Origin: Flavobacterium sp. LHD-85
GTDB lineage: Bacteria > Bacteroidota > Bacteroidia > Flavobacteriales > Flavobacteriaceae
NCBI RefSeq assembly: GCF_030929595.1
Contig: NZ_JAVFVR010000016.1
Span: forward strand, 1 to 64,000
Length of the DNA: 64,000 nucleotides
Direction of reading: 5' to 3'
Shown: piece by piece, positions 12,110-15,506 of the stretch
Layout: the number at the start of each line of letters is the position of its first letter
Numbering within the stretch: position 1 is the first letter of the stretch
Notes under the pieces: model-generated
Seen by the model: the letters and a program-made list of their open reading frames with translations, nothing else
Database searches by the model: none
Told to the model about the DNA's origin: nothing
Program-made: the position numbers and the translations under genes

Positions 12110-12149
12110 ATTTTTATGTCCGAAAATTTTTAAACTGCTTTTTTATATT

Positions 12150-12189
12150 CCATTGGTCAAAACAAAAACGCAGTTCGTCAAATTGATTT
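12150..12189 (+). promoter_or_regulatory. Candidate LytTR-regulator operator upstream of the sensor kinase
   Basis: Direct half-sites GTCAAA start at 12156 and 12177, exactly 21 bases apart. They sit in the frame CCATTGGTCAAAA … GTCAAATTGATTT. A near copy with the same spacing lies in the other orientation at 15458-15496. Direct repeats two helical turns apart are the usual LytTR binding form. The site is 33-40 bases before the kinase promoter, which fits activation. Confidence 0.55.
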
Positions 12190-12221
12190 CAATAACACTT
12201 ATGGTTTATGCTTCTTTGCTG

Positions 12222-12250
12222 TTTGTTTAAAAAATATAGAACTATTTTTG
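12222..12250 (+). promoter_or_regulatory. Promoter of the sensor kinase gene
   Basis: A Bacteroidota-type promoter: TTTG at 12222-12225, a 17-base spacer, then TATTTTTG (TAnnTTTG) at 12243-12250. It lies about 31 bases before the ATG at 12282. Confidence 0.6.
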
Positions 12251-12281
12251 AAGTTAAATTTTCTCAGTAAATTATATATAG

Positions 12282-13331
12282 ATGATTGCAATCAATAAAA
12301 ATAGGCATTGGATATTTTTAGTCTTTTTTTGGAGTTTGTTAGGCATCACGATTTGGGCGCAGATGATCGAAGATTACGATTTTTTGACGGCTACGATTCA
12401 GGCTATTTTAGTTTTGATTTCTTCTGCCGTTTTAGCTCATATTTTAAGTGATGTTATACTGCCCAAAGCATTAAAACAAAATAAAATGAGCTCGTTTGCC
12501 GTACAAAGCGTTGTTGTTGTGCTGCTTTTGGCATTTTGTCTGTCATTGATTTATATTGTTTTTTCTGATTCGGTTATAAGAAGGAAAGCATATCCTGAAG
12601 AAACAGATGTAGATTCTCTTCATTTTTTATGGTCGCGATTTTACGGCAACATTCCGTCTGCGATTTTAATTTGCGGCACTGCTTGCGGACTTCGGTTTTA
12701 TCAGGAACATAATGTTATCGAAAGAAATCATGCGCAATTGCAGCAGGTTCATTTAGAAGCTCAAATCAAGATTTTGCAAGATCAGATTAATCCGCATTTA
12801 ATGTTTAATGTTTTGAACCATATTCATATTCTGATGCAGAGCAATGTAAAGTTAGCTTCAGATTTATTGGTTCAGTTTTCGGATATTTTGAGGTATCAAT
12901 TGTATGAATGCAACAAAGAATATGTGCCTTTGCATCTTGAAATTAAATATTTAAAAGATTTAATTGCCGTTGAAGAAACTCGTTGGGGAAATGAATTGGA
13001 AGTAAAAAGCAAATGGAATATAGAAGACGGACAGCTTCAAATCGTACCGTTACTTTTGGTTCCTTTGATCGAAAATGCTTTTAAACATGTTTCCCGACTT
13101 CCAAATCAAAAAGGATATGTGCATTTGTCCTGCGAGCAAATAAATCATCAACTGAATTTTAAAATAGAAAACTCATATACAGAGCAATATAAAATACCTT
13201 CAAAAAATCAAGGATTAGGTTTAGAGAATGTGAAGAAAAGATTGGAAATACAATATCCTGAAAAGTACAAATTAGACATCCATAAAACCGATTCTGATTT
13301 TACAGTTGAAGTGGTTTTAGATTTAAAATAA
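12282..13331 (+). CDS. LytS-type sensor histidine kinase (His_kinase family)
   Basis: The 349-residue protein has four membrane segments (about 10-27, 36-58, 71-94, 121-138). A coiled linker (QLQQVHLEAQIKILQ) and the kinase core of the LytS/YehU group follow. The phospho-acceptor His is in QINPHLMFN (His172), the N box is IENAFKH (about 263-269) and the G box is GLGLENVKKRL. The usual PHFLFN reads PHLMFN here, a mild change. There is no sensor domain beyond the membrane part. Its partner is the LytTR regulator at 13757, 425 bases downstream across a repeat. It probably autoregulates through the operator at 12150. Confidence 0.92.
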   Translation: MIAINKNRHWIFLVFFWSLLGITIWAQMIEDYDFLTATIQAILVLISSAVLAHILSDVILPKALKQNKMSSFAVQSVVVVLLLAFCLSLIYIVFSDSVIRRKAYPEETDVDSLHFLWSRFYGNIPSAILICGTACGLRFYQEHNVIERNHAQLQQVHLEAQIKILQDQINPHLMFNVLNHIHILMQSNVKLASDLLVQFSDILRYQLYECNKEYVPLHLEIKYLKDLIAVEETRWGNELEVKSKWNIEDGQLQIVPLLLVPLIENAFKHVSRLPNQKGYVHLSCEQINHQLNFKIENSYTEQYKIPSKNQGLGLENVKKRLEIQYPEKYKLDIHKTDSDFTVEVVLDLK

Positions 13332-13333
13332 TT

Positions 13334-13688
13334 TTTTAGCCACAGATTATAAAGATTAAAAATGATTTTATTTTAGCCACTAATTGCACGAATTAGCACG
13401 AATTTTTAATCTTCAAAATCTTAACATATTGCTTTGTGCTCTTAGCATCCTTTTATAAAATTAAAACTTTGCGTAAAACCTTTGTGTTCTTTTCGTTAAA
13501 ATTTTTAGCCACTCCCGATAGCTATCGGGATAAAAGATTATAAAGATTAAAAAGGATTTTATTTTAACCGCAAATTACGCAAATTAGCACAAATTTTAAT
13601 CCGCAATGCTTTGTGATCTTTGCATCCTTTTAAAAAATTAAAACTTTGCGAACTTTGCGTAAAACCTTTGCGCTCTTTGCGGTTAAAG
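13334..13688. repeat. Two head-to-tail copies of a dispersed Flavobacterium repeat
   Basis: Copy 1 (13334-13501) and copy 2 (13502-13688) share the order: AGCCAC, GATTATAAAGATTAAAAA, an antiparallel GCACGAATTAGCAC-like block, a GCTTTGTG…TTTGCATCCTTTT block and AAAACTTTGCGTAAAACC. Copy 2 also contains the palindrome CCCGATAGCTATCGGG at 13514-13529. The block fills the 425-base gap between kinase and regulator. No gene is seen in it. Confidence 0.75.
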
Positions 13689-13756
13689 AAAAAATCTGCT
13701 AAATCTGCCCAATCTGCGAGAAACAAAAAAATACCAAACCAGAAACAAAAAAAACT

Positions 13757-14470
13757 ATGAAAATGAAATGCCTCATAATAGACGATGAACCTATAGCAAG
13801 AAATGGAATAGCAGATTTTGTTTCTAAAATTGATTTTCTAGAAGTTGCCGGTACTTGCGCTTCGGCATTAGAAGCGACTTCGTACCTTCAGGAAAAGCAA
13901 ATCGATTTGATGTTTCTGGATATCAATATGCCTTATCTTACGGGATTGGAGTTTCTGGAATCATTAGAGAACCCGCCCCTGGTGATTTTTACAACTGCTT
14001 ATTCAGAACATGCTTTAGATGGATATCGTCTTCAGGTTGTAGATTATTTATTAAAACCTATTACTTTTCAGCGTTTTTATCAAGCTTCGTTAAAAGCAAA
14101 GCAATGGCATCAAATGCTGAATTCTCCAAAACAAAGCCAATTGGATCCTTTTTTATATGTGCGTCAGGAAGATGGATTTCAGAAAATTTCTTGGATAGAT
14201 ATTTTATATATCGAAGGAATGCAAAATTATGCAAAGCTTCATTTTAAAGATAAAGTGTTGATTATTCATCAGACGATGATTTCATTAGAAGAAACACTTC
14301 CCAAAGAAATTTTCTTTCGAATCCATAAATCATTTCTCGTAAATGTTACGCATATAGATTCTATTTCTGGCGGACGACTATTTATAAAAGGACAAGAACT
14401 ACCCATTTCAAGAACACGCCGTGAGGAATTATTGAAAGAGGTAGTCTATAAAAACTTATTAAGCAGGTAG
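13757..14470 (+). CDS. LytTR family DNA-binding response regulator
   Basis: This 237-residue protein has a receiver domain (1-120): acidic pair D9/D10, phosphorylation site D55 in LDINMP, T80 and K100 (LLKP). A LytTR DNA-binding domain (about 138-235) contains YIEGMQNYAKLHFKDKVLIIHQTMISLEETLP and RIHKSFLVN. It pairs with the LytS-type kinase upstream. Its stop is 3 bases from the convergent stop of the DUF6268-like gene. Likely targets are the two shared operators at 12150 and 15458; that is inference from motif and position. Confidence 0.95.
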   Translation: MKMKCLIIDDEPIARNGIADFVSKIDFLEVAGTCASALEATSYLQEKQIDLMFLDINMPYLTGLEFLESLENPPLVIFTTAYSEHALDGYRLQVVDYLLKPITFQRFYQASLKAKQWHQMLNSPKQSQLDPFLYVRQEDGFQKISWIDILYIEGMQNYAKLHFKDKVLIIHQTMISLEETLPKEIFFRIHKSFLVNVTHIDSISGGRLFIKGQELPISRTRREELLKEVVYKNLLSR

Positions 14471-14472
14471 CT

Positions 14473-15408
14473 CTAGAATTTCCATTTCAGCGCTATTGCT
14501 CCATAAAATGTAGTGGTGAATCTTGGATCTGCAATATCTTTTTCCTTGAAAATTTCTTTAATTTTTCGGTTTGTTGTCGAAAAACTTCGAAGAAGAGTAG
14601 TTCCGCCAGTTGGTTCTAAAATCCAATGTTTTCCAAATTTCATCTGAGGTCGTAAGCCTGCAATTATTTGCTGATATCCAAGTAGTGTAGATTTATTTCC
14701 AATTTTGGTTTCAGCTGTCATTCCGCTTATTTCCGCTACTGCTTTTAAGTCAAAAGTATCAGACATTCGATAGCCAATTTCTACACCTTCCGGAAAAGCT
14801 ACTTTAAAATGCAAAGCTCCTGTAGATTCCCAGTTAAAATAAATTCCAGGAAGAACCATTGGCACACCAAAACTATTAGTTAAAACCGGTCCAGCCCCCA
14901 AAGCCAGTTTAGGATTAAATTGTTTGATAAAAAGAATTCCACCTTGAAGCAGGACATCGTCTTTATTAATTTCGACCATGTCTGTATAAACCCCTACAGA
15001 AGCCATTATTAACAGCGACCAAGAAGAAGAAATAGAACGCAAATGCTTGACTCCAACTTGCGTATTGAGCAATTCATCTGGAAATCCGCTTTGAAATGCT
15101 ACTGGAAGATCTTGAATGTTGTAGTTTCTGTTTTCCATTTTGGCATAACTGCTATTAAAAAACACCGACCAGAGTTTTGGATGATCATATTTATCCATTT
15201 TTAAAGATAGCGGAACTTCAAAAGCCAATTGCGCTCTTTTAAAATTGCTTTCGGCATTTGTTTTTGTGCTATCCATTGGTCGTACATATTTAGAAAAAGG
15301 AACGTAATCGACTTTGAATTCGCCTGAAATTCCCGATTGTGATCGTGCGGCAAGAGTAACAAGTAAAAAAATAAAAAGCTGCGATAAATAAAAGACTGTT
15401 TTGTTCAT
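14473..15408 (-). CDS. Outer-membrane beta-barrel protein (DUF6268-like)
   Basis: The 311-residue protein has a signal peptide (MNKTVFYLSQLFIFLLVTLAARSQ). Alternating-residue strands run throughout and the last residue is aromatic (GAIALKWKF), as expected for an outer-membrane barrel. It resembles the DUF6268 group. No substrate is known. It converges with the LytTR regulator gene. Its own upstream DNA carries a reverse-oriented copy of the operator found before the kinase, so it is the likely output gene of this two-component system. Confidence 0.82.
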   Translation of the reverse strand: MNKTVFYLSQLFIFLLVTLAARSQSGISGEFKVDYVPFSKYVRPMDSTKTNAESNFKRAQLAFEVPLSLKMDKYDHPKLWSVFFNSSYAKMENRNYNIQDLPVAFQSGFPDELLNTQVGVKHLRSISSSWSLLIMASVGVYTDMVEINKDDVLLQGGILFIKQFNPKLALGAGPVLTNSFGVPMVLPGIYFNWESTGALHFKVAFPEGVEIGYRMSDTFDLKAVAEISGMTAETKIGNKSTLLGYQQIIAGLRPQMKFGKHWILEPTGGTTLLRSFSTTNRKIKEIFKEKDIADPRFTTTFYGAIALKWKF

Positions 15409-15457
15409 GATTTGATTAATTTTTCTGCGAATTACCGCGTTCTAAACCAATCCCAAA

Positions 15458-15496
15458 AAATCATTTGACTACCAGCACTTTTCTTTTGACCAATGG
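15458..15496 (-). promoter_or_regulatory. Candidate LytTR-regulator operator of the DUF6268-like gene
   Basis: Read on the minus strand this is CCATTGGTCAAAA … GTCAAATGATTT. The two GTCAAA half-sites occupy 15485-15490 and 15464-15469, again 21 bases apart. It shares almost all fixed bases with 12150-12189. It ends about 50 bases before the ATG at 15408. A weak -33/-7 pair (TTTTG, 19 bases, TAATTCG) lies between, suggesting a promoter that needs an activator. Confidence 0.55.
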
Positions 15497-15506
15497 CATA
15501 AAATAA

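Follow-up and report, generated by a model that had tools for sequence, protein, structure and literature searches.

How does a LytTR-type two-component system of Flavobacterium, a genus in whose genomes such regulators recur, recognise its promoters, and how many of them does it control? The question is raised by a 64,000-nucleotide stretch of Flavobacterium sp. LHD-85 (contig NZ_JAVFVR010000016.1, positions 1 to 64,000; hereafter the window), in which one direct repeat, GTCAAA-N15-GTCAAA, stands both before the sensor kinase gene of such a system and before a gene of the DUF6268 family that converges on the regulator gene. An earlier note on this DNA had read the two copies as operators through which the system controls itself and a single nearby outer-membrane gene. 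The analysis reported here makes it very likely that they are indeed operators of the LytTR regulator, serving autoregulation and a local outer-membrane target, and the sequence comparisons lend good support to a new LytTR operator whose regulon is small and local. The conservation, spacing and position of the sites, their co-occurrence with the regulator and the local placement of all close matches are direct observations.

A tandem half-site with a period of 21

The window contains exactly two copies of the exact repeat, at 12156-12182 (+) and 15464-15490 (-), where 0.07 would be expected, and none of 100 shuffled windows contained two; spacing and orientation to the genes are as the note had described them. 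The extended form CCATTGGTCAAAA-N14-GTCAAA is exact at 12150-12182 (+) and 15464-15496 (-) and, with up to three mismatches allowed, has an expectation of 0.08, two matches being found in 1 of 100 shuffles. For the GTCAAA repeat alone, up to two mismatches give 16 matches in the window against 14.8 expected, which is no enrichment, so that only the exact, extended form is informative; degenerate repeats of this kind were dropped as a signal, their count being at chance level. Throughout the surrounding Flavobacterium genome of 5.64 Mb (coded G000 in the genus scans), the pattern CCNTTNGTCAAA-N9-CCNTTNGTCAAA at up to three mismatches has one forward and one reverse match, which are the two operators and thus the sole close matches. 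The bare GTCAAA repeat has seven copies in the whole genome, three of them within one tandem array elsewhere (C3:404787-404855, loci L001-L003) built of a 21-bp unit with GTCAAA.

Clear orthologues of the regulator, taken as at least 58 % identical (next-best rows reach at most 46 %), were found in 37 of 299 Flavobacterium genomes, the window's own included. The locus set, drawn from 34 named kinase loci and further stretches, has 54 members: 39 close loci, 13 distant ones and 2 sister systems (i.e., the window, 51 orthologues and the two sisters). L149, taken to be the same contig as L028, was excluded from it and kept among the 53 orthologue rows of the residue comparison below, and loci L042-L071, which overlap counted loci, were excluded from the counts. 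When upstream regions are compared, the half-site appears as the unit (A/T/G)CC(A/G)TTnGTCAAA, present twice with a period of 21. The core lies where the note had put it, with the proposed outer ends, 12189 and 15458, running a few bases past what is conserved, and GTCAAA, taken there for the half-site, is the 3' part of a longer unit.

A scoring matrix was trained only on sites of the close clade, those preceding DUF6268 and those preceding the kinase, with a threshold of 10.0 that corresponds to 99.9 % of 3000 reversed windows (null maximum 11.5); operator 1, before the kinase, scores 36.5. Sites pass before DUF6268 in 51 of the 54 loci, made up of 39/39 close loci and 12 of the 15 others (13 distant and 2 sisters), and in the kinase operon, either before the kinase or before a preceding barrel gene, in 50 of 54; both promoters have a passing site in 47 of 54. 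The sister loci contain a single site between divergent genes, which was counted at DUF6268. The note had made its proposal hinge on conservation in orthologous loci, and by these counts the sites are conserved. Since training used close-clade sites, there is some circularity in the 39/39 at DUF6268 and in the 14 close loci whose site immediately precedes the kinase, and the evidence relied on comes from the 15 untrained loci and from 25 untrained sites before a gene of the OMP_b-brl_2 family. In the 15 untrained loci a period of 21 passes in 12, and periods of 15-20 and 22-27 pass in 0-2.

The OMP_b-brl_2 gene, which encodes about 200 amino acids (PF13568 in the five examples scanned), is the third member of the system. 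In 25 of the 39 close loci it precedes a kinase that has no site of its own, and the site begins 87-95 bp before the barrel gene in all 25. The other 14 close loci, with the window among them, have the site directly before the kinase, and the barrel gene was not found there; it is also missing from four distant loci and both sister loci. The equivalent of operator 1 in relatives stands either before the kinase or before an OMP_b-brl_2-kinase operon. Over the whole set the gene was found in 34 of 54 loci and is preceded by a passing site in 32 of these, and four distant loci (L074, L075, L076 and L078) have three sites, before the barrel, the kinase and DUF6268. A single nearby target, as first proposed, fits the genome of the window, which has no close copy of the gene elsewhere (best 30 %), and is too narrow for the loci that possess it. 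The lineage of the window probably lost the OMP_b-brl_2 gene and retained its operator, 12149-12282 being the probable scar.

The half-site also looks like a LytTR site. Nikolskaya and Galperin reportedly gave the half-site consensus [TA][AC][CA]GTTN[AG][TG] in 2002. Over 89 distinct sites the fit to this consensus averages 7.84 (first half) and 7.33 (second half) of 9 positions, against 4.47 for random sequence; the full 9/9 is reached by only 20 first and 4 second halves because A is commoner than G at the fourth base. LytTR sites have been described as pairs of repeats, direct or inverse, each 9-11 nt long with a spacer of 11-13 nt, and, in the sections covered, without a common consensus (PMC4847170). 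The operator has the layout of the direct-repeat class, two repeats with a period of about 21, and a gene for a regulator with receiver and LytTR domains lies close by.

Promoter geometry and the direction of control

In flavobacteria the sigma-A -7 element has the consensus TAnnTTTG and extends from -12 to -5 (PMC9723704). Counted from the end of the operator over the 51 DUF6268 promoters with a passing site, offsets 32 and 33 are T in 51/51 and offset 35 is G in 50/51, which corresponds to a box of the TAnnTT(T/C)G type with its first base at offset 28. The best-scoring box starts at this offset in 41 of the 51 DUF6268 promoters (21, 27 or 39 in the others) and in 15 of 22 kinase promoters (otherwise 29, 34, 35 or 39). 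Among 32 OMP_b-brl_2 promoters it is found at 28 in 13 and at 18 in 18, with candidate boxes at both offsets in L014 and L029. By the predicted box, the operator would occupy roughly -74 to -41 and so adjoin the -33 region on its upstream side; a sigma-A-like box that usually begins 28 nt past the operator fits an activator.

According to the mechanism that we infer, the kinase would phosphorylate the LytTR regulator, two molecules of which would settle on the tandem half-sites, on one face of the DNA and immediately ahead of the -33 region, from where they would recruit RNA polymerase. Binding by this regulator would thereby activate rather than repress, raising the DUF6268 barrel and, as positive feedback, a presumably co-transcribed kinase-regulator operon. 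The pair looks functional, given that His172 of the kinase and the phospho-acceptor motif FLD(I/V) of the regulator are kept in 54/54 loci. More tentatively, the locus could be a self-contained outer-membrane switch, whose direct regulon consists of its own operon and one or two dedicated barrels. A barrel would alter envelope permeability and so feed back on the signal of the kinase, with OMP_b-brl_2 as a dispensable second output that the lineage of the window lost while keeping its operator.

The same regulator might bind these sites as a repressor, with the signal relieving a blocked promoter, which we regard as unlikely. Position alone is no proof of activation, and a LytTR protein with repeats overlapping the -35 box, CoxC, acts as a repressor (PMC11347149). 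The present operator, however, in most cases stops some 28 nt short of the -7 box without overlap, LytTR regulators bound upstream of -35 mostly activate (PMC11347149), and so do the close published layouts, those of the S. mutans LytTR regulatory system (LRS; PMC6193735) and of AgrA at P2/P3 (PMC4227749).

Sites and regulator across the genus

To which protein do the sites belong? With at most two mismatches, a genus-wide scan found matches in 33 of the 37 orthologue genomes, and none of the 56 matches in these genomes is more than 4.5 kb from the regulator gene. The other 262 genomes yielded 12 matches, including that in the sister system of G281, which is fewer than the 35 obtained there with a reversed-pattern control (41 control matches, the remaining 6 in orthologue genomes). 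A scan of this strictness is blind to weaker or single half-site targets. At up to three mismatches 204 of 299 genomes match and the reversed control also hits many, and this setting was used only for the counts in G000. Across the order, at most one mismatch leaves 4 of 395 genomes, all Flavobacterium and none outside the genus at that strictness.

Kinase, regulator and DUF6268 genes are all present in 47/47 loci tested (the window and 46 others); among these, the neighbours PPK2, OMPb and MATE accompany close loci only, and in the distant locus L073 some 2 kb separate DUF6268 from the regulator. The DUF6268 subfamily (E <=1e-12) is found in 41 of 299 genomes, namely the 37 orthologue genomes and G281, G232, G171 and G152, the match in the last being weak. 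G281 and G232 hold the sister systems (DUF6268 31 %, regulator 43-44 % identical), in divergent order with one site between the genes; G171 and G152 have neither such a regulator within about 5 kb nor the site. Three DUF6268 loci from other genera have no site, two of them adjoining other LytTR systems, and related DUF6268 genes without this regulator carry the site in 0/5 cases. Elsewhere in the family the gene is present in 125 of 249 genomes, and among the best 30 DUF6268 loci of the family scanned only the window's own site turned up, four of these loci being without a site in wider flanks as well, so that DUF6268 in general is not tied to the operator. In L188 (4567-7305) and L187 (4625-7088), from two other genera, a DUF6268 gene (28-29 %) adjoins a LytTR system without the operator, the regulators being 39 % and 27 % identical to that of the window, respectively; the partnership of DUF6268 and LytTR may be older than the operator.

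The sites also follow a set of residues in the regulator, which bears out the proposed link to the two-component system. In the receiver domain the sisters are less like the window regulator (51-53 % identity) than are some site-less paralogues (58-62 %), whereas in the LytTR domain they reach 37-40 % against 27-36 % for site-less paralogues. Thirteen LytTR-domain columns are shared by both sisters and at least 90 % of orthologue rows, but by no more than 25 % of 12 comparison regulators; they include M155, Q156, N157, H171, T173, I189, K191, R219 and R221. M155-Q156-N157, K191 and R219/R221, among others, are candidate specificity residues. Shared columns other than K191 presumably correspond to DNA contacts. 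K191 itself aligns by motif with N201 of AgrA (FFRCHNS; PMC4227749).

An unlinked transcription factor, with the LytTR connection merely indirect, is a quite improbable owner of the sites. G000 does encode other LytTR-type regulators, two or more of them full-length, but every match in the 37 genomes adjoins this one, DUF6268 genes without it are also without the site, a different global factor would be expected to have other targets, and the sites go with LytTR-domain residues, not with receiver-domain similarity. Chance, or a recent functionless duplication of a promoter, can practically be dismissed: the repeat with two mismatches is no rarer than expected, but the exact sites exceed expectation, and they persist in distant orthologues, where the flanking genes differ, and in a sister system with another order of genes.

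Several observations nevertheless weigh against operators of this regulator with autoregulation and a local target. L072, L073 and L077 fail at DUF6268, with a weak upstream half-site (they pass at the kinase operon), and L081 and L083 have the DUF6268 site only, without a passing one at the kinase operon. Four of the 37 orthologue genomes (G072, G123, G219 and G259) have no match at up to two mismatches, the sister systems come from two genomes only, and the distance from operator to -7 box varies among promoters. The 12 comparison regulators include a near-identical group of five as well as that of L145, a locus with a variant repeat. Lastly, kinase and regulator genes in the window are separated by a repeat-rich gap of 425 bp, so that autoregulation of the regulator requires read-through.

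The variant repeat of L145 (4791-4824, minus strand) is a direct repeat with GTCATA that scores 24.9. It is found some 300 bp ahead of a kinase gene that belongs to a quite distinct LytTR system, whose regulator is 32 % identical and in whose stretch no DUF6268 was found. The repeat could be a related operator or a coincidence.

Known LytTR systems and the layout of the locus

The closest known systems are those of AgrA, of E. coli YpdA/YpdB and of Bacteroides LRS-like operons. At P2/P3 of S. aureus, AgrA likewise uses two direct repeats just upstream of the promoter, the promoter-proximal ones centred near -60 (PMC4227749), where the Flavobacterium operator would lie at about -57, and it shares the FhRhHRS-type LytTR motif (FFRIHKS in the Flavobacterium regulator). 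In contrast to AgrA, the Flavobacterium half-site is longer and distinct, the presumed targets are an outer-membrane barrel and the system's own operon, and the -7 box is of the Bacteroidota type. The YpdA/YpdB-yhjX system of E. coli combines a LytS-type kinase and a LytTR regulator with 10-bp direct repeats 21 bp apart and a single direct target, a membrane-protein gene; its half-site GGCATTTCAT differs, however, and its target is a putative major-facilitator transporter (PMC4847170). In S. mutans, LRS repeats are 9 bp long, four of five sets being 12 bp apart and 4-11 bp before -35, and positive autoregulation by HdrR has been demonstrated (PMC6193735). The present system differs from an LRS, defined by a transmembrane inhibitor in place of a kinase, in that its partner has a His_kinase domain, and the regulator falls below the NCBIfam BtsR equivalog cut-off (114.9 vs 246 bits).

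The earlier note knew of no operator for this group in Bacteroidota. This has to be corrected, as predictions of LytTR direct repeats in Bacteroides are in print: LRS-like operons of B. thetaiotaomicron and B. ovatus have (T/A)CCG....TCA in 3 of 4 printed half-sites, the repeats lying 11 bp upstream of a TGTA/TGTG-19-TATCTTTG promoter, e.g., TCCGGTATTCA-11-ACCGGAAATCA before TGTA-19-TATCTTTG (PMC6193735). Half-site skeleton and place are similar to those described here. The differences are a period of 22 instead of 21, a LytTR protein with transmembrane segments, a DUF2154/NfeD partner with no histidine kinase and, in the parts of that paper covered, no separate target gene (PMC6193735).

A literature search over titles and abstract openings, with subscription journals outside it, gave, among the matches listed, no operator for a LytTR two-component system in Flavobacterium and no described role for DUF6268; it found no paper under the locus tags Fjoh_501-503. 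The LytTR-kinase pair FJOH_RS09515/RS09520 of F. johnsoniae is probably another system, going by its tag number, which suggests a place on the chromosome far from the end, near which the gene studied here would lie in that species. This pair is named in a coevolution study (PMC10197871). An operator of this class was to be expected; its specific sequence, the conservation of the sites and the small size of the regulon are new to the literature searched. One LytTR system of Flavobacterium thereby gains a specific operator, its usual promoter geometry, a local regulon of one to three promoters and candidate specificity residues.

Table 1. Positions in the window of the two operators, the predicted promoter elements and the genes of the system.
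Feature	Position	Strand	Remarks
Operator 1, before sensor kinase	12149..12182	+	Half-sites 12149-12161 and 12170-12182, period 21
Predicted -7 box, kinase promoter	12211..12218	+	CTTCTTTG, imperfect TAnnTTTG, begins 28 nt past operator 1
Sensor histidine kinase	12282..13331	+	His_kinase PF06580, hydrophobic N-terminal stretches
Response regulator, presumed operator-binding protein	13757..14470	+	Response_reg PF00072 and LytTR PF04397, both above Pfam cut-off
DUF6268 (PF19783), predicted outer-membrane beta-barrel, presumed target	14473..15408	-	
Predicted -7 box, DUF6268 promoter	15428..15435	-	GTAATTCG, imperfect, begins 28 nt past operator 2
Operator 2, before DUF6268	15464..15497	-	Two 13-nt half-sites, period 21

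The DUF6268 protein scores 320.9 bits against a Pfam gathering cut-off of 22.8. Its structural model, an N-terminal helix and 14 strands (predicted local distance difference test score, pLDDT, 78.4; predicted TM-score, pTM, 0.73), has porins and autotransporter barrels as best solved matches in Foldseek, every listed TM-score being below 0.5. The model thus favours a putative barrel and no specific function. As this uncharacterised family of predicted barrels is now tied to a regulator, the inducing signal can be sought with a reporter.

Within the window the locus comprises genes for PPK2, the kinase, the regulator and convergent DUF6268 and a small barrel-like gene, and the nearest named relative of the kinase is that of F. 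nitrogenifigens (98 %). Kinase and regulator genes are nearly adjacent in the distant orthologues compared. In the window, their gap seems to be filled by repeat DNA, which may be relevant to their co-transcription: imperfect repeats lie within 13328-13760, with copies of 63 nt (87 % alike), 44 nt (93 %) and 37 nt (86 %).

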